In this document: positions 5,197 to 59,732 of the stretch, one piece after another
Position numbering within the stretch: the first letter of the stretch is position 1
How the letters are laid out: each line of letters starts with the position of its first letter
NCBI RefSeq assembly: GCF_900002575.1
Contig: NZ_LN650648.1
Location: forward strand, 2,581,565 to 2,645,564
Reading direction: 5' to 3'
Length of the DNA: 64,000 bases
Source: Romboutsia hominis
Lineage (GTDB): Bacteria > Bacillota > Clostridia > Peptostreptococcales > Peptostreptococcaceae
Notes under the pieces: model-generated
Database searches by the model: none
What the model saw: only the letters and a program-made list of their open reading frames with translations
What the model was told of the DNA's origin: nothing
Made by a program: the position numbers and the translations under genes

Positions 5197-5552
5197 TTTT
5201 GTTACCTCCTCTATTATTTTTTAATTTATTTCCTATTTATTTAGATATACTGATATCTAAATATAATTACCTAAATCATTTTTATTATTTCATGAAATTA
5301 AAAAAACTCGACCCAAATATATATATTTGGGACGAGTATAAATTCGCGGTTCCACCCAAGTTGATGTATATAATACACCCTCTTAAGACGACTATAAGGT
5401 AGTCAACCGAATACTTTCACATATGCTACTAAATTCTGCTCCAAGGTAGTTTTCAAATAGACATATTTAGACGAGCTTTCAGCCGGTGACTCATCTTCTC
5501 TGGAAATTGTTTCTATTTTACTTGTCCTTTTCATCGCAATTTCTATTAAGTT
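5197..5552 (-). promoter_or_regulatory. T-box leader of thrS (tRNA-Thr sensing)
   Basis: The minus strand carries the hallmark T-box sequence TGGAACCGCGA (about 5354-5344) just upstream of a strong terminator stem (arms around 5306-5320 and 5323-5337, one A-A mismatch) followed by seven T. Upstream lies the long stem I region with GATGAGTCACCGGCTGAAAG. ACC at 5447-5445, in CTACCTT, is a likely threonine specifier codon. Known mechanism: uncharged tRNA pairs with the specifier and the T-box and favours antitermination. The specifier assignment is inference. Confidence 0.93.
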
Positions 5553-22312: not shown

Positions 22313-23980
22313 TTAATCAACTATTTTACTTCCACCTACAAACTCTCTCAATATTGATGTTGGTGGTATATCTGATATGTCTGATAACTCAACAAAATAT
22401 TGAAGAAACTTTAAAAGTCTATTAGCTTCTATATATGAACTATTTTCCTTATCAATTTCCTCTAGTAATGGTTTTGCGTACTTTTTCAATACTGCTAATT
22501 CATAAATACATGCAGAGTTAAATATTATATCCGCTTCCTCTTGATATGGGAATATATTTTTCTTCTCTCCACGTCTTACTGATTCCCACTGCATTATTGT
22601 CTTTTCTGCGCTATAACCTCTAAAATTATAATCTCTAACCATTCTTCTTATTAACCTTAAATCCGTTGTAGGTATTCTATTATGGTCATCTAAATTAATT
22701 TGAGTTAGGGCACTTATATAAATTTTAAATTTATCTTCATCTGGTATTGATGATGTTAGCATAGGATTTAATCCATGTATTCCTTCTAATATTATTGGCT
22801 GATTTTCTTTTATTTTTAACTTCTTTCCTTTTTCTTCTCTTATTCCTAATTTAAAATTAAACTTAGGTAAACTTATTTCCTTACCTTCTAGTAAATCTTT
22901 TAAATCTTTATTAAATCTCTCTAAATCTATTGCATATATAGACTCAAAATCATAATTTCCAAATTCATCTAGTGGAGTATGCTCTCTATTAACAAAGTAA
23001 TCATCTAAAGATATTGATACAGGATTTAGATTATTGACTCTAAGATGTATTGATAATCTATGAGCAAAACTTGTTTTACCTGATGATGAAGGAGCTGCTA
23101 TTAATATAACTCTCTTATTTTTTTCTTTTATAATATCTGCTATTTGAGATAATTTTTTCTCATGTAGAGCTTCTACTGTTCTTATAATTTCTCCATACTC
23201 TTTTCTTTCTATTACCTCATTAAGTGTAGTTACTTTACTTACTCCCATAAGCTTTGACCAATTCTCCGCTTCATGATATACACTCGATAACTTAGGCTGT
23301 TCTTTAAATTTAGTTGGTATATTTTTATTTTCTTCACTTGGACCTAATACTATTATTCCATTTTTATATGGTTTTAAATCAAATGTCTTTATATATCCCG
23401 TAGATGGTAACATATATCCATAGAAATGATTTATATGATTGTTACACTTATATATCTTTACATCATCATGTTCCTTGTATTTAAGAAGCTCTGCTTTCTC
23501 ATACATTTTATTATCTTTAAATATTTTTATTGCTTCTTCTTTATTAGTGTCTATTCTTTCTATTTTATAATTAGACTCTATTATATCTTTCATTTTTTTG
23601 TTTATAGCTTCTACATCTTTCTCTATCAATTCTCCATCTTTATGAACTTCACAATATAATCCCTTTGATAGAGAATGTTCTATTACTACTCGACAATCTT
23701 TAAATACTTCGTTACAAGCCATTATAAATATAAATGACACAGTTCTAAAGTATACTCTTAATCCATCTTCGCTAGTTGTATCTAAAAAACTTAATTTACA
23801 GTCTTTGTTTATACTATAATTTAATTCTCTTAGTTTGTTGTCTATAACTCCTAATGTTATGTATCCTTTATAGTCTTTATCTATTTCTTTTACTATACTT
23901 TCTAGTTTTACTCCTGGAGAATCTTTTTCTATTTTATAAACTTTTTCATTTCCTTCTACATTGATAGTTATATTTTTCAT
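22313..23980 (-). CDS. uridine kinase-like protein fused to ThrRS-like TGS/editing domains
   Basis: A 555-residue fusion. Residues 1-65 resemble a TGS domain and 70-215 the editing domain of ThrRS (GLYCEVHKDGELIEKDVEAINKKM parallels ThrRS; MLPSTGYIKTFDL parallels HLPSTKKVKSV). The zinc-binding HTSAH of ThrRS is replaced here by RTVSF, so editing activity is unlikely. Residues 285-500 are a phosphoribulokinase/uridine-kinase-type P-loop domain: Walker A APSSSGKT (296-303), ISLDDYFVNRE, ILEGIHGLNP, RRMVRDYNFRG. The real substrate is unknown; similar fusions occur in clostridia annotated as nucleoside kinase. ATG with AGGAGA site. Confidence 0.88.
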   Translation of the reverse strand: MKNITINVEGNEKVYKIEKDSPGVKLESIVKEIDKDYKGYITLGVIDNKLRELNYSINKDCKLSFLDTTSEDGLRVYFRTVSFIFIMACNEVFKDCRVVIEHSLSKGLYCEVHKDGELIEKDVEAINKKMKDIIESNYKIERIDTNKEEAIKIFKDNKMYEKAELLKYKEHDDVKIYKCNNHINHFYGYMLPSTGYIKTFDLKPYKNGIIVLGPSEENKNIPTKFKEQPKLSSVYHEAENWSKLMGVSKVTTLNEVIERKEYGEIIRTVEALHEKKLSQIADIIKEKNKRVILIAAPSSSGKTSFAHRLSIHLRVNNLNPVSISLDDYFVNREHTPLDEFGNYDFESIYAIDLERFNKDLKDLLEGKEISLPKFNFKLGIREEKGKKLKIKENQPIILEGIHGLNPMLTSSIPDEDKFKIYISALTQINLDDHNRIPTTDLRLIRRMVRDYNFRGYSAEKTIMQWESVRRGEKKNIFPYQEEADIIFNSACIYELAVLKKYAKPLLEEIDKENSSYIEANRLLKFLQYFVELSDISDIPPTSILREFVGGSKIVD

Positions 23981-24004: not shown

Positions 24005-24030
24005 AAAAAGAGGTATTTAAACCTCTTTTT
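24005..24030 (-). terminator. terminator of the HEPN-lepB-TIM barrel operon
   Basis: Stem AAAAAGAGGT / ACCTCTTTTT (24005-24014 with 24021-24030), overlapping the final codons of the TIM-barrel gene. Confidence 0.8.
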
Positions 24031-24778
24031 TAATCTCTTTTATATATTCTATACTTTCCTTTATATCATGATATTTTATCTCTAATATTAAGAACTCTGG
24101 TTCTAAGTCAATGATAGTTTTAACTTCTTTTTTATCTAATATACCTTTATTTATCCCTATATGTATATCTTTCTTTCCATCATTGTCACTTAAATGAACT
24201 ATTCTAATCTTGTTATGTAATTTGTCTATATAATTATCCCTATTGATTAGATTATGGCCTGTATCATAACAAAACCATAATTTTTCATTTTCTACTTTAT
24301 TAAATATATATTCAAAATCATATAGTTTGTTACCTACATTTGATAAATCACCATTATTAGAATAAGTATTTTCTATTGATATATTAGCTTTCGTCTTATT
24401 TATAATATCATTTAACATACTACATGATATATCTAAATATTTTTCTCTATTTTTATCTAATCTATCAGATATAACATACCCTAGGTGAAGATTGTAGTAA
24501 CAAATATTTAAATGTTTTAATTTATAGTTCATTTCTTCTACAAATCTTACCCAAGATTGTCTAATAAATTCTATATTCTCACACAAGTTTAACTCCATAG
24601 GTAAATGAATACTTAAAGATACATTTAATTCTTTAAGCTTGTCTATATATTTGTATATCTCATCACACTCATATAAGTTATCTATACCAAGTTCTATATG
24701 TTTTATTTCATCTATCTCTTTGCACAAATTTATTGCTTCATCAAGATTATATAATAATGCTGATATACCAATTTTCAT
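24017..24778 (-). CDS. sugar phosphate isomerase/epimerase-like TIM barrel protein
   Basis: A 253-residue member of the xylose isomerase-like/AP-endonuclease 2 superfamily. Metal-site strands are recognisable: LSIHLPMEL, YYNLHLGY, ISIENTYS, FCYDTGHNL, IVHLSDNDGKKDIHIGINKG. Substrate unknown. A GTG at 24787 directly follows the lepB stop, but AGGTG seven bases ahead of the ATG at 24778 favours that start. It is the third gene of a probable operon with the HEPN-type gene and lepB. Confidence 0.85.
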   Translation of the reverse strand: MKIGISALLYNLDEAINLCKEIDEIKHIELGIDNLYECDEIYKYIDKLKELNVSLSIHLPMELNLCENIEFIRQSWVRFVEEMNYKLKHLNICYYNLHLGYVISDRLDKNREKYLDISCSMLNDIINKTKANISIENTYSNNGDLSNVGNKLYDFEYIFNKVENEKLWFCYDTGHNLINRDNYIDKLHNKIRIVHLSDNDGKKDIHIGINKGILDKKEVKTIIDLEPEFLILEIKYHDIKESIEYIKEIKKEV

Positions 24779-24787
24779 GTAATTCAC

Positions 24788-25321
24788 CTATTTTACAGTT
24801 CCTATTTTATTAAATGGATATAACCTTATCATTACCTTACCCATTATATTTTTTTCATTTACTAACCCGACATCTTCATATCTACTATCTAAACTCTTCT
24901 CTCTATTATCTCCCATTGCAAATACTTCACCCTTTGGAACTGTCATATCTATATATCCATCTGTATAATTATCATGTATATATGGTTCATCTAATAACTT
25001 TCCATTTACATATACTTTGGAATTTTCTATCTTAATATGATCTCCTCCGGTTGCTATAACTCTCTTTACTAAGTCTTTAGGTTTTCCATTGTCTTGAAGT
25101 AAATTCGTATGGAATACTATTATGTCTCCCTTTTTTGGCTCTCCTATTTTATAAGCCATTCTATTAATTATTAAATAATCATTTTCCTTTAAAGTAGGAT
25201 ACATAGATTCTCCCTTAACTAAAGTAGGTCTTATAAATTGAGTTATTATAAATGCAAAAATAAGAGCAGTAGCTATTACCTTAATCCACTCTATTGCTTC
25301 TTTTTTTAATTTTTCACTCAT
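24788..25321 (-). CDS. lepB: signal peptidase I
   Basis: A 177-residue membrane-bound signal peptidase of the Gram-positive type. One N-terminal membrane segment (about residues 13-30) is followed by GESMYPTL with the catalytic Ser39, DLVKRVIATGGD with the general base Lys86, and GDNREKSLDSR, box E. It releases exported proteins from their signal peptides. Gene order is HEPN-type protein, lepB (31 bases later), TIM-barrel protein, all on the minus strand, so they are probably one transcript. Confidence 0.96.
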   Translation of the reverse strand: MSEKLKKEAIEWIKVIATALIFAFIITQFIRPTLVKGESMYPTLKENDYLIINRMAYKIGEPKKGDIIVFHTNLLQDNGKPKDLVKRVIATGGDHIKIENSKVYVNGKLLDEPYIHDNYTDGYIDMTVPKGEVFAMGDNREKSLDSRYEDVGLVNEKNIMGKVMIRLYPFNKIGTVK

Positions 25322-25352
25322 CCTAATAATCTCCTCCTAAATTTTAATTTAG

Positions 25353-26153
25353 TTAATAATTGGTGTAACTTCCTATCATTTGTATAGCCATCTCATTTAT
25401 ATTATCATATTTATCCATTTTTATACCTAAGTCTAGTAATTCACATGCTTTAACTAAGTCCTGAACTACTTCCATGGGATTGCCATATAACTCTTCAATA
25501 TCTTCTTTGCTAACCCCTTTAAATCCATGTCCAACTGGGCTTTCATGTCTAATCTTAATTAAATTTTCTAGTCTTTCTCCATTTAATATATCAACAACCT
25601 TTTCCATTCTTTTTGTTTTTTTAATATACCTATTTATATAGTTAGTCACCCCAGTTATTAGATTTCCATTATATATATTATACTTCTTTTTTAATGTATA
25701 TAGAATATTTTTCTTTGATACCATATAACCATGCATATTTACTTTATATTTTTTATTTTCCTTAGTACTTACAAATATATATTTAAATAATGCTTCCTTT
25801 AATCTATATAACCTTCCCAAAAAATCAATATACTCTTCATTAACAATTTGTATCTTCATATTTTCTATGAGCTCTGATAATATGTCTTCAGGTTCTCCAT
25901 TTTCTAGATTTTCTAGGTTAGAAACCAATCTTTTTATCTCTCTTCTACTTAACATCTCACTGCTCATCTTTTTTAAACTTATCGATGCTTTTTTAAAGTC
26001 AAAGTTTATAGCATACTTAGATGATTCCATTAATAGGTATAGATCTCCTTCGACTATACCAACTTCTTCTAATACATCAATTACCGCATCATAATCATAT
26101 CTTTGTAAAAATTTATATATAACATACTCTTTACTTTTATCTAATGGATTCAT
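25353..26153 (-). CDS. hypothetical protein with Csm6/Csx1-like HEPN signature
   Basis: A soluble, mostly helical protein of 266 residues with no membrane segment. Three segments recall the C-terminal HEPN half of Csm6/Csx1-type proteins: KYAINFDFKKASISLKK (about 46-62), FLGRLYRLKEALFKYIF (111-127) and R202-H-E-S-P-V-G-H209, an R-x6-H arrangement followed by GFKGVSKEDIEELYG. R-x4-6-H is the catalytic motif of HEPN ribonucleases. The N-terminal CARF sensor of Csm6 is absent and no CRISPR or cas gene is near. It is the first gene of the probable operon with lepB. The assignment is by eye; confidence in the HEPN idea is moderate. Confidence 0.6.
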   Translation of the reverse strand: MNPLDKSKEYVIYKFLQRYDYDAVIDVLEEVGIVEGDLYLLMESSKYAINFDFKKASISLKKMSSEMLSRREIKRLVSNLENLENGEPEDILSELIENMKIQIVNEEYIDFLGRLYRLKEALFKYIFVSTKENKKYKVNMHGYMVSKKNILYTLKKKYNIYNGNLITGVTNYINRYIKKTKRMEKVVDILNGERLENLIKIRHESPVGHGFKGVSKEDIEELYGNPMEVVQDLVKACELLDLGIKMDKYDNINEMAIQMIGSYTNY

Positions 26154-26330
26154 ATTTCCCTCCTAGTTGTACCTCTTTTTAATACACATATATTTATTAT
26201 TAAACTAGAAGGTTTATATTATGTAAAAAAGCTCATATTAAATATAATATATTAAGGCTTTTTTGAATAATATATATAATAATTATATTTATCTATAAAT
26301 TTAAAATAAGTGTGTCTACATATATACTAT

Positions 26331-26364
26331 AAAAAGGTACTAAGTTATAACTTAGTACCTTTTT
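26331..26364 (-). terminator. terminator of prsW-rsmF
   Basis: Stem AAAAAGGTACTAAGT / ACTTAGTACCTTTTT (26331-26345 with 26350-26364). A weaker hairpin (AAAAAAGC ... GCTTTTTT, 26224-26260) lies further on; 26165-26330 has no gene. Confidence 0.85.
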
Positions 26365-26373
26365 ATAGCTACT

Positions 26374-27672
26374 TTAGTATTTTATTCTAAGACCTTTCGG
26401 ATAGTGGTTTTTTAATACTCCATTGGATTCTTTTCCCCACCCTAGTGGTATATTTTCTACTGTTACTAATACCCATCCTCTACTTTGTCCTGTATTTATG
26501 ATATTTCCTCTTAAATAATTTAATACTTCTTCATCTTGTATTGATAAATTCTCTGTATACTTAACTTGATTTGGCTTTAAATAATGAGACAATGCATGTG
26601 ATGGCTCAAACCTATTTTTCTTTAGTATTCCCAAATGAAGTCCATATCTTAAAACTTTTAATTTTTTAGTTTCTGGACTTTCTTCTGGCAATAGATATAA
26701 ATTTTCTCCTCTTATATCAAATTTATTTCCTATTGACTCATTTAAAAATTTCTTTTCAAATTCTCTAAAATCCTTTAATTCTGTATCTAATCTTTTAACT
26801 TTTAATTCTTTAGTTTTTATATCCTCTTCTTCATTTTTTTGTATTTTAGCTACAAAGTGACCTTCTCCTTTTATCTTGTGAGGCCATAATCTTTCCATCT
26901 CTATAAGCTTAGCATTTTCATATTCTTCTATAAACTCATTTATAACTGTTTCATTTTCTTCTTTCGCAAATGTACATGTAGAATATACTAACGTACCTCC
27001 ATTTTTAAGCATCTCATATCCATCTCTTATTATTTCTCTTTGAATAGATTGACATTCTAATACTTTTGCATAGCTCCAATCACTTATAGCAACTTCATCT
27101 TTCCTAAACATTCCTTGCCCTGAACAAGGAGCATCTATTACTATTTTATCAAAGTATCCTCTAAATACCTTCTTTAGATTATTTGAGTCTGTATTTGTTA
27201 TTATACAATTTTTAGCTCCAAATCTCTCTAGATTTTCTCCTAGTGCTTTTATTCTCATTGGGTTTATTTCATTTGATACTAATAATCCTGTATTATTTAG
27301 TTTTGATAGTATGTATGTTGATTTTCCTCCTGGAGCAGCACACATATCTAGAATTTTTTCACCTTCTTTAATATCCAACTTTGGCACAACACTCATAGCT
27401 GATGGTTCTTGTAAATAATATGCTCCTGCCTCATGTAGTGGATTTTTGCCGGGTCTATCTATATCTTCATCATAATAAAAGCCTTCATTTACCCAAGGTA
27501 TTTGTTCTAGTTTAAATAAATTTAATTTATCTAAGTCATTTTTACTTATTTTTAATGTATTAACTCTAAGGCCGGTAGTTTTTTTATCATCATATGTTTT
27601 TATAAATTCATCATACTCATCTTTTAGTATTTCTTTCATATCACTTAAAAATCTTTCAGGTAGCTTTGTCAA
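26374..27672 (-). CDS. rRNA m5C methyltransferase, NOL1/NOP2/Sun family (RsmF-like)
   Basis: A 432-residue RNA cytosine-C5 methyltransferase. The SAM site CAAPGGKSTY (about 110-119), the DAPCSGQGMFRKD catalytic block and the second Cys motif YSTCTFAKEENE are complete. The C-terminal ~150 residues form the extra RNA-binding part seen in RsmF/YebU (ends SRGWVLVTVENIPLGWGK). The exact target base is not determinable. It starts at TTG with a GGAAGGA site and overlaps the prsW stop by four bases, so the two are translationally coupled. Confidence 0.9.
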   Translation of the reverse strand: MTKLPERFLSDMKEILKDEYDEFIKTYDDKKTTGLRVNTLKISKNDLDKLNLFKLEQIPWVNEGFYYDEDIDRPGKNPLHEAGAYYLQEPSAMSVVPKLDIKEGEKILDMCAAPGGKSTYILSKLNNTGLLVSNEINPMRIKALGENLERFGAKNCIITNTDSNNLKKVFRGYFDKIVIDAPCSGQGMFRKDEVAISDWSYAKVLECQSIQREIIRDGYEMLKNGGTLVYSTCTFAKEENETVINEFIEEYENAKLIEMERLWPHKIKGEGHFVAKIQKNEEEDIKTKELKVKRLDTELKDFREFEKKFLNESIGNKFDIRGENLYLLPEESPETKKLKVLRYGLHLGILKKNRFEPSHALSHYLKPNQVKYTENLSIQDEEVLNYLRGNIINTGQSRGWVLVTVENIPLGWGKESNGVLKNHYPKGLRIKY

Positions 27673-55451: not shown

Positions 55452-57674
55452 CTATAATACATCTAATGTTGTGTATTCTTTATTTATTTTTTTAATTCCT
55501 TGTTCTTTAAATGCTATTGTAACATCAGAGCCCATCATACCAACAACAGTACCTTCTCCAAATTTTGGATGATGTACCTTTGCTCCTAGCTTTATATCAT
55601 CTATATCAGTTTCTTTTTTAGTATCTTTTATAGTCGCATTTACTTTTTTAGCAACTGTGGACTTATTCATAGTGTTCATATATTTTTGTTTGTACTTATC
55701 TAATACATTATAATTAGCCTTTGAGTAAGTTAATTCTTTTTCTACTTTGTTAAGCTTCTCTATACATTGTTCTGGTAATTCTTCCATAAATCTAGATGCT
55801 ATTGATGGATTAGTTTTTCCATATAAAGTTCTTCTTTGAGTTAATGTCATATAAAGAACTTCTTTTGCTCTTGTTATACCAACATAGCAAAGTCTTCTTT
55901 CTTCTTCTATATCTGACTCACTCATTGACCTTACAGCTCTAGATATTGGGAATAATCCCTCTTCCATACCAATTAAGAATACAACAGGGAATTCTAGCCC
56001 TTTTGATGTGTGTATAGTCATTAATGATACTTTTTCTATCTCTTCATCTTCACTAGATTCAGATGAAAGTGCAACACCTGTTAAGAATGTTTGTAAATCT
56101 TTTTCTTCGCTACTTTGCTCAAATTCTAATGCTATAGATATAAACTCTTTTAGATTATCAATTCTATCTTGAGCTTCTTCACTTTTGTCCTTAGATAGCT
56201 CATCTATATATCCTGTAGTCTCTAATACTTTCTCTATAAGCTTACTTACAGGATATACTTCTTTTATAGTTCTAAGTGTTCCTACTGTATCAACAAATCC
56301 ATTTATACTATTTTTAGCTTTTGTTGATATATCTGAATTTGTATCTATATCTATTAGTACAGAGTACATACTCTCTTGCTTTAAACTAGCTCTATCTTCT
56401 ATTTTTTCTATAGTTCTAAGACCTATACCTCTTCTAGGTACGTTTATTATCCTCTTTAAAGATATATCATCTTGAGGATTTTGTATAACCCTTAAATATG
56501 CTAGTAAATCTTTTATTTCTTTTCTTTCATAGAATTTTGTTCCACCATATATATTATATGGTATTTGGCTTCTATTAAGTGCATCTTCTACTGGACGAGC
56601 CTGAGCATTAGCTCTATAAAGTACAGCAAAGTCCTTATAAGTTCTACCTTGCTCTCTTGCTATTTTAGCTATCATATCTGCAACAAAATCAGATTCATTT
56701 ATTTCATTTTCAGATAGTTGTATCTTTATTAGCTCTCCTTCTTTTTTCTCACTCCAAAGTTTCTTTCTTTTTCTTTCTATATTATTAGATATAACAGTAT
56801 TTGCTGCATCTAGTATAACTTGAGTAGATCTATAGTTTTGTTCTAGCTTAACAACATGAACATCATCATAGTCTCTTTCAAACTCAAGTATATTTCTTAT
56901 ATCCGCACCTCTCCATCCATATATACTTTGGTCATCATCTCCAACAACACATATATTTTGATGTTCCTTTGCTAATAATTTTATTAGTTCATATTGAGCT
57001 TTACTTGTATCTTGATACTCATCTACCATTATATATTTAAATCTACTTCTATAAAATTCTAAAACTTCTTCTTCAGATTTTAAAAGTTCTACTGTTTTAT
57101 ATATTAAATCATCAAAATCTAAAGCACTATTTCTTTTTAAACGATCTTGATATAGTGCATATACATCTGCAATCTTACTCATTCTATTATCATGTCTATG
57201 CATATCTTTAAATTGTGATGGGCTATACAGCTTATCTTTTGCCCCTGATATTGTACTTATTATTACCTTAGGTTCAAATACTTTATCACTTAAATTTAAC
57301 TCTTTTAAACAGTCCTTTACTAAGGTAACTTGGTCAGCACTATCATATATAACAAAACTTCTATTGTATCCGATTCTATTTATATCTTTTCTTAGTATAC
57401 GCACACAGCAAGAGTGGAAAGTACTTATCCACATTTCCTTTGTATCTGTTCCTAAAGTTTCCTCTACTCTCTCTCTCATTTCATTAGCAGCTTTATTTGT
57501 AAATGTTATTGCTAATATATTTGGGGCTTGTACACCTTTATCTTCTATAAGATGTGCTATTCTCGTTGTTAAAACTCTAGTTTTCCCTGACCCAGCTCCA
57601 GCTAGTATAAGTACCGGTCCTTCTGTTTTTTCTACAGCTTCTCTCTGGGCAGGATTTAATGTATCTAAATTCAT
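55452..57674 (-). CDS. pcrA: ATP-dependent DNA helicase PcrA
   Basis: A 740-residue superfamily 1A helicase that unwinds DNA 3' to 5' in repair and replication. Motifs in order: AGAGSGKTRVLTTRIAHL (I), VDEYQDTSKAQYELI (II), GDDDQSIYGWRGAD (III), LEQNYRST (IV), TIHTSKGLEFPVVFLIGMEEG (V) and YVGITRAKEVLYM (VI). The C-terminal ~55 residues form the Tudor-like RNA polymerase-binding domain (HHPKFGEGTVVGM). ATG with AGGAGG site. No ligA follows, unlike in Bacillus. Confidence 0.97.
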   Translation of the reverse strand: MNLDTLNPAQREAVEKTEGPVLILAGAGSGKTRVLTTRIAHLIEDKGVQAPNILAITFTNKAANEMRERVEETLGTDTKEMWISTFHSCCVRILRKDINRIGYNRSFVIYDSADQVTLVKDCLKELNLSDKVFEPKVIISTISGAKDKLYSPSQFKDMHRHDNRMSKIADVYALYQDRLKRNSALDFDDLIYKTVELLKSEEEVLEFYRSRFKYIMVDEYQDTSKAQYELIKLLAKEHQNICVVGDDDQSIYGWRGADIRNILEFERDYDDVHVVKLEQNYRSTQVILDAANTVISNNIERKRKKLWSEKKEGELIKIQLSENEINESDFVADMIAKIAREQGRTYKDFAVLYRANAQARPVEDALNRSQIPYNIYGGTKFYERKEIKDLLAYLRVIQNPQDDISLKRIINVPRRGIGLRTIEKIEDRASLKQESMYSVLIDIDTNSDISTKAKNSINGFVDTVGTLRTIKEVYPVSKLIEKVLETTGYIDELSKDKSEEAQDRIDNLKEFISIALEFEQSSEEKDLQTFLTGVALSSESSEDEEIEKVSLMTIHTSKGLEFPVVFLIGMEEGLFPISRAVRSMSESDIEEERRLCYVGITRAKEVLYMTLTQRRTLYGKTNPSIASRFMEELPEQCIEKLNKVEKELTYSKANYNVLDKYKQKYMNTMNKSTVAKKVNATIKDTKKETDIDDIKLGAKVHHPKFGEGTVVGMMGSDVTIAFKEQGIKKINKEYTTLDVL

Positions 57675-59496: not shown

Positions 59497-59672
59497 CCGA
59501 AGAAATCATTTAATATTATTAGGCAGGTCTCCTGACTTAGCTTCATTTTACTCTTTCTCCTTCCCATAATCTAATATTACAGTGGTTTTAGAAATTTCAT
59601 CAGCATCACAGTAGCGGGGGCTGTAGAGGATTTTAACCTCTTTCCCTATTAATCTTATATTAAGAACCTATA
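59497..59672 (-). promoter_or_regulatory. cobalamin (adenosylcobalamin) riboswitch
   Basis: On the minus strand: TAGGGAA, then GGTTAAAATCCTCTACAG, CCCCCGCTACTGTGATG (about 59620-59604), the variable arm, and AGTCAGGAGACCTGCCT (59537-59521). These are the conserved parts of the B12 riboswitch, including the B12 box equivalent. The terminator at 59419-59455 is its expression platform. It is read away from the AAA+/VWA genes, toward the BMP lipoprotein 510 bases further on, with a second terminator in between. Function: stop transcription when B12 is plentiful. Confidence 0.9.
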
Positions 59673-59732
59673 ATATATACTTTTCTATATTAAATTATAT
59701 TCGCTATATATTTTAATATTCCTTTTATTTTT

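Follow-up and report, generated by a model that had tools for sequence, protein, structure and literature searches.

What does the ribonuclease part of a type III CRISPR effector do in a cell that encodes it alone? A gene in a 64,000-nucleotide stretch of the Romboutsia hominis genome (hereafter the window) raises this question. Type III Csm6 and Csx1 proteins carry an N-terminal CARF domain and belong to type III CRISPR systems, whereas the window's gene has no CARF part and its genome has no match to Cas1 or Cas10. The features that matter here are the following:

25353..26153, minus strand: stand-alone 6H-HEPN gene (C-terminal half of Csm6/Csx1), 266 aa; from ORF, profile and predicted fold
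25893..26153, minus strand: 6H helical domain, residues 1 to ~87; approximate boundary, by analogy with Thermus Csm6 and the scheme in PMC4748810
25410..25892, minus strand: HEPN domain, residues ~88-248; approximate boundary, from profile and predicted fold
25527..25550, minus strand: predicted catalytic motif R202-H-E-S-P-V-G-H209 (R-x6-H)
25794..25796, minus strand: E120, invariant in homologues
24788..25321, minus strand: lepB, signal peptidase I (Peptidase_S26), next gene; from ORF and Pfam
24017..24787, minus strand: TIM-barrel protein, weakly like CbiR (cobamide remodelling; 56 bits, cut-off 105)
22313..23980, minus strand: URK, a ThrRS-like and phosphoribulokinase/uridine-kinase fusion; from profile matches
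26374..27672, minus strand: rsmF, rRNA methyltransferase, upstream neighbour; from ORF and Pfam
26327..26368, no strand: perfect 21-nt inverted repeat between rsmF and the HEPN gene

The gene begins with ATG inside an open frame of 269 aa, and an in-frame stop lies right before the start. A preliminary description of this DNA had called the product CARF-less, and the short frame agrees with this, as do homologue frames of 255-316 aa. It had also pointed to R202-x6-H209 followed by G-F-x-G-V-S; GFKGVS indeed comes directly after the motif. To judge the motif we used as background all 58 window frames of at least 150 aa, read stop to stop on both strands, whether genes or not. R-x4-6-H occurred in 16 of them, R-x6-H in 8 and R-x6-H-G in one. 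By itself the R-x4-6-H motif is weak evidence; it is raised above chance because profile, fold and conservation agree.

The PADLOC Csx1 profile PDLC01509 matched with E 2e-32, its positions 186-437 (of 440) aligning to residues 8-258. Other CARF-HEPN profiles matched mainly through their C-terminal parts. Thus, the protein corresponds to no more than the C-terminal half of Csx1/Csm6. Two profiles stayed below their cut-offs: Pfam Csm6 HEPN (23.6 bits, cut-off 27) and NCBIfam TIGR02710 (18.2, curated cut-off 83.9). An AlphaFold model built on an alignment of 28 family members was all helical (pLDDT 91.1, pTM 0.88), and the HEPN fold is present in this predicted model. Foldseek gave a single match under E 0.001, Streptococcus mutans Csm6 (SmCsm6, 4rgp; E 5e-5, TM 0.55, rmsd 9.1); all other Csm6 entries were above E 0.001. 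A second structural alignment also placed 4rgp on top (Z 16.4 over 230 residues, 3.6 A, 12% identity). The next ten rows were all Csm6 or Csx1-Crn2 (Z 14.5-8.4) and the following row had Z 6.6; AbiV (9bj7) aligned at Z 4.7. According to the aligner's own note a best Z of 14 is typical for helical models that have no clear match, so the fold case depends on three things: the 4rgp match, the drop in Z after the eleven Csm6/Csx1 rows, and the consistency with the PADLOC result. TPR and kinesin-light-chain rows (Z 5-7) were ascribed to a common helical arrangement.

The assignment to Csm6/Csx1-type HEPN proteins is therefore borne out by the PADLOC match and the best structural match, and no confident non-HEPN fold appeared. 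Two upstream helices had been read as part of the HEPN half. Both lie in predicted helices, but only FLGRLYRLKEALFKYI (residues 111-126, inside predicted helix 108-131) belongs to HEPN; FDFKKASISLKK (residues 51-62, mostly in predicted helix 53-61) falls within the 6H part. The N-terminal 6H domain had not been set apart before. Sequence alone did not lead to a solved structure: a single-protein search of the PDB found nothing, and the family profiles A1 and A2 gave weak matches and no confident one. In the profile search, the weak matches to cysteine desulfurase SufS (E 0.12-0.3) and to a designed NTF2 (E 0.01-0.14) were taken as chance.

Among known systems, SmCsm6 is the closest in architecture: it too has 6H and HEPN but no CARF (the searched chain has 255 residues), and PMC4748810 also describes it as lacking this domain. 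A naturally CARF-less Csm6 is thus already known from 4RGP. At 12% identity and a family-profile E of 0.7, orthology between SmCsm6 and the window's protein is not supported at the sequence level. Thermus thermophilus Csm6 (5FSH) has the 6H and HEPN half in common with it (Z about 11-12), and Thermus Csm6 and type III effectors show an R-[N/H]-x5-H motif and a conserved Glu, as the window's protein does. HEPN-MNT toxins and Abi proteins also combine R-x4-6-H with predicted RNase activity (PMC3710099), and RNase LS is named among HEPN RNases (PMC4012209). These form a different subfamily, and no MNT partner or mobile setting was seen at the window locus.

We asked how widely the gene occurs. 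It was matched at E 0.001 or better in 33 of 61 genomes (the window's own and relatives), 26/37 in the window's family and 7/24 in other families of the order. Order-wide, 91 of 393 genomes matched, 89 of them with one full-length frame each; at 255-316 aa these frames are too short for CARF and are thus CARF-less. Four of the 89 (G028, G008, G480 and G490) had one TAA within the matched stretch; in G028 and G008 (loci L006 and L010) the frame was intact on direct reading, 263 aa from the chosen start. G452 (locus L115) carries, at the usual site, a homologue broken into three short frames, either a pseudogene or an assembly error. A match in G584 was dropped when a second look found no HEPN match, as was a weak second match in G019 with four stops. 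The sole longer protein among the 61 genomes, a 478-aa frame in G050 matched by the Csx1 model (E 1.1e-4), shows that CARF-HEPN-sized relatives occur in the order. A class-wide sample of 391 genomes gave seven matches, three stand-alone ones in members of the order and four with frames of 440-1176 aa. In a phylum sample of 398 genomes the Csx1 model matched 21; besides the window's gene and G928 the frames measured 406-523 aa. G928, from another family of the phylum, has a 304-aa 6H-HEPN frame (L170, 4172-5083) that lies 39 nt from a contig end; it may represent either another stand-alone lineage or a truncated CARF-HEPN gene. Searches of 50,697 phage and 72,556 plasmid records found no match; in viral contigs 12 stretches fitted a peptide pattern, but no relative could be confirmed among them. 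The gene is chromosomal, apparently inherited vertically, and not mobile.

In the window, 31 nt lie between the HEPN gene and the start of lepB, which has the same orientation, so the joint operon that had been proposed for the two genes is likely. The 21-nt inverted repeat, probably a bidirectional terminator, separates the HEPN gene from rsmF, consistent with the HEPN gene being first in its transcription unit; a terminator scan over 24700-26600 scored no site. The gene's leader holds an imperfect inverted repeat (26215-26274, 18-nt arms, 89%), a possible attenuator. The neighbours are lepB, the TIM barrel, URK, RsmF and PrsW, with no nucleotidyltransferase of the HEPN-MNT antitoxin kind among those scanned. 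URK has its ThrRS-like stretch at residues 88-206 and its phosphoribulokinase/uridine-kinase domain at 291-489; a structure prediction run on it without an alignment was discarded (pLDDT 33.9), and the literature searched held no paper on such a fusion.

Is lepB a constant companion, the point that the preliminary description proposed to check? In a first set of 39 loci (33 distinct proteins) lepB was the next recognised gene in all 39. When the set was widened to 63 loci in four families, the broken copy L115 included, the nearest recognised downstream gene was lepB in 45 and URK in 18, where only query-like genes are recognised and at large distances an unrecognised gene may lie between. The nearest downstream gene was within 120 nt in 62/63 loci, and URK lay somewhere downstream in 60/63; of the other three, L077 has only 1,254 nt of downstream sequence and L177 and L178 have about 5 kb. 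Upstream, prsW (9/21), rsmF (7/21) or no recognised gene (5/21) was nearest in the window's family. Outside this family a pseudouridine synthase was the nearest recognised upstream gene in 38/42 loci, within 120 nt in 33, and rsmF and a second pseudouridine synthase lay further upstream in several loci; for L084, L113 and L103 we read the ORF order directly. Pfam identified RNA pseudouridylate synthase and S4 domains in two of these upstream neighbours. We presume the two synthases to be RluD-type and RsuA-type, and take another neighbour to be a GNAT protein.

From the 28 genomes without the HEPN gene we looked up 17, 8 in the window's family and 9 in others. All eight had rsmF or prsW followed by lepB (gap at most 253 nt), and four of the nine had a pseudouridine synthase followed by lepB (gap at most 307 nt), gaps too small to hold the HEPN gene. 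The other five showed no recognised gene beside lepB on that side within 1.5 kb, save prsW at ~700 nt in L129. Thus, the HEPN gene is a clean optional member of an old operon. We therefore rejected lepB as the defining functional partner: URK is next in 18/63 loci, and lepB is kept where the HEPN gene is missing. A CBS-domain neighbour, considered as a nucleotide sensor acting in trans, was set aside because it also stands beside lepB in genomes lacking the HEPN gene (L128, L129). Tandem duplicates of lepB were seen at the locus both without the HEPN gene (L118, L124, L125, L128, L130) and with it (L012, L013).

Taken together, fold and setting suggest that the product is probably a dimeric, active endoribonuclease independent of CARF, encoded in a translation/secretion operon, with an activity and a target that we infer. 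A narrower proposal, which we hold only tentatively, is that a Csm6-type RNase became, or always was, a translation housekeeping enzyme that would cut rRNA, tRNA or ribosome-bound mRNA, encoded with rRNA methyl- and pseudouridine-modifying enzymes and URK. The steady company of rsmF, pseudouridine synthases, the URK fusion and lepB makes a translation-linked cellular RNA the probable substrate; against this link, the same company persists in genomes that lack the HEPN gene. An ungated RNase would also be expected to be toxic, and that no antitoxin is evident counts against the main reading. Could the gene encode a chromosomal toxin that arrests growth, with a neighbour, for example URK or a different product of the operon, serving as antitoxin? 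Toxin roles are described for many HEPN domains (PMC3710099), and the downstream gene is close enough to overlap by 8, 4 or 1 nt in 14/63 loci with the chosen starts. However, the adjacent partner varies between families (lepB or URK), both candidates persist where the HEPN gene is absent, no nucleotidyltransferase was seen among the neighbours scanned, and searches of plasmid, phage and viral collections did not find the gene, which sits at a single conserved location. We regard a toxin as unlikely.

We also searched for CRISPR genes. The window's genome is a single contig (completeness 99.92). It gave no match to Cas10 (TIGR02578, a model that matches 7/14 control genomes) or to Cas1 (9/14 controls), and two Csx1/CARF-HEPN models matched the HEPN gene alone; the earlier statement that CRISPR genes are missing therefore holds for the models tried. 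Across the 61 genomes, TIGR02578 matched 33 at E 0.001, mostly weakly, and three over its cut-off; Cas10 forms outside this model may be missed. The 6H and HEPN half of Csm6/Csx1 is present, and its N-terminal CARF domain and its association with Cas10 are not. These counts bear on the idea that the protein is a defence effector gated in trans, by a separate CARF protein or another sensor, during infection. The fold is that of the type III effectors, the 6H domain, which is retained, is the proposed signal relay of Csm6 (PMC4748810), and the HEPN gene is present in each of the three genomes whose Cas10 match exceeds the cut-off (G020, G021, G046). Against it, those are only 3 of 61 genomes, the window's is not among them, and Cas10-like matches, including sub-cut-off ones under E 1e-8, are found in 5/33 genomes with the HEPN gene and 4/28 without, which is no association. 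This makes trans gating quite unlikely.

To examine the active site, we aligned 72 distinct homologues, excluding the broken copy L115; 39 of the rows are whole stop-to-stop frames that can include residues before the true start. R202, H209, G208, G210, E120, D110, R114, R117 and K124 were invariant in 72/72, down to 30% identity to the window's protein, so the two catalytic residues singled out earlier do not vary freely. Position 203 was Asn in 45 homologues and His, as in the window's protein, in 27. Outside the stand-alone group, R and H of the motif aligned in 17/17 relatives and D110, R114, R117 and E120 in 14-15 of the 17. In Thermus Csm6, Arg415, Asn416, His422 and Glu332 are each needed, and a protein without CARF (delta 1-190) is as active as the full length (PMC4748810). 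By order and conservation E120 is probably the counterpart of Glu332. One residue speaks against activity: the window's protein has His203 where Thermus Csm6 needs Asn416.

A non-catalytic RNA-binding or scaffold protein retaining the HEPN fold would accommodate this N/H variation, as well as the many invariant positions beyond the active site. A pure scaffold, however, has no need of the R, H and E found in every homologue, and we consider it very improbable. A decaying CRISPR effector, the inactive relic once suggested, is hardly credible. One broken copy (G452) speaks for it, but full-length frames stand in 89/91 matching genomes, and the gene is not a relic because the active site is invariant and dN/dS is 0.01-0.19 across 12 close pairs, which shows purifying selection.

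The likeliest reading remains a housekeeping RNase that works without cyclic oligoadenylate, its activity being predicted. Such a 6H-HEPN protein would be a homodimeric, metal-independent, single-strand-specific endoribonuclease, with a composite site built from R202, H209 and E120 of the two chains together with H203 (most homologues have Asn here). Cleavage would leave 5'-hydroxyl and 2',3'-cyclic-phosphate ends. Dimer, chemistry and product ends are carried over from Csm6 (PMC4748810) by analogy. Cyclic oligoadenylate would not be needed; activity might instead be set by operon expression, substrate specificity or a partner, and the substrate would probably be a cellular RNA linked to translation.

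How did the stand-alone form arise? We built a tree from 27 of the 72 stand-alone rows and 17 others, the latter labelled as CARF proteins by open-frame length and partial profile coverage and including G928, whose N-terminus is unseen. The 27 stand-alone rows formed one group apart from the 17 (support 89/95; 84% of 200 bootstrap trees). The tree is unrooted and several of the other rows are long-branched, so the tree fits a CARF loss as well as the capture of a free HEPN protein by CARF. CRISPR type III may thus have recruited its RNase from a cellular family of this kind.

Either way, the RNase half of a type III effector has been kept alone under strong selection in four families of one order, with no Cas10 association in the sample. 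This suggests that a kind of ribonuclease known from defence may also have an everyday job, and raises the question of how a cell lives with such a CARF-ungated RNase and what it cuts. A caution also follows: PADLOC Csx1, a defence-gene profile, gives a high score here to what is probably no CRISPR effector. Among the literature matches listed, in a search that covered few subscription journals, none described a conserved, apparently vertically inherited CARF-less family in a translation/secretion operon.

Elsewhere in the window, Rfam RF03531 (n00280) matched at 55835-55934 on the minus strand; this Clostridioides difficile sRNA reportedly lies within a helicase gene, and the match may reflect coding conservation. 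The window also holds a T-box leader (5325-5543, minus strand) and a cobalamin riboswitch (59505-59685, minus strand).
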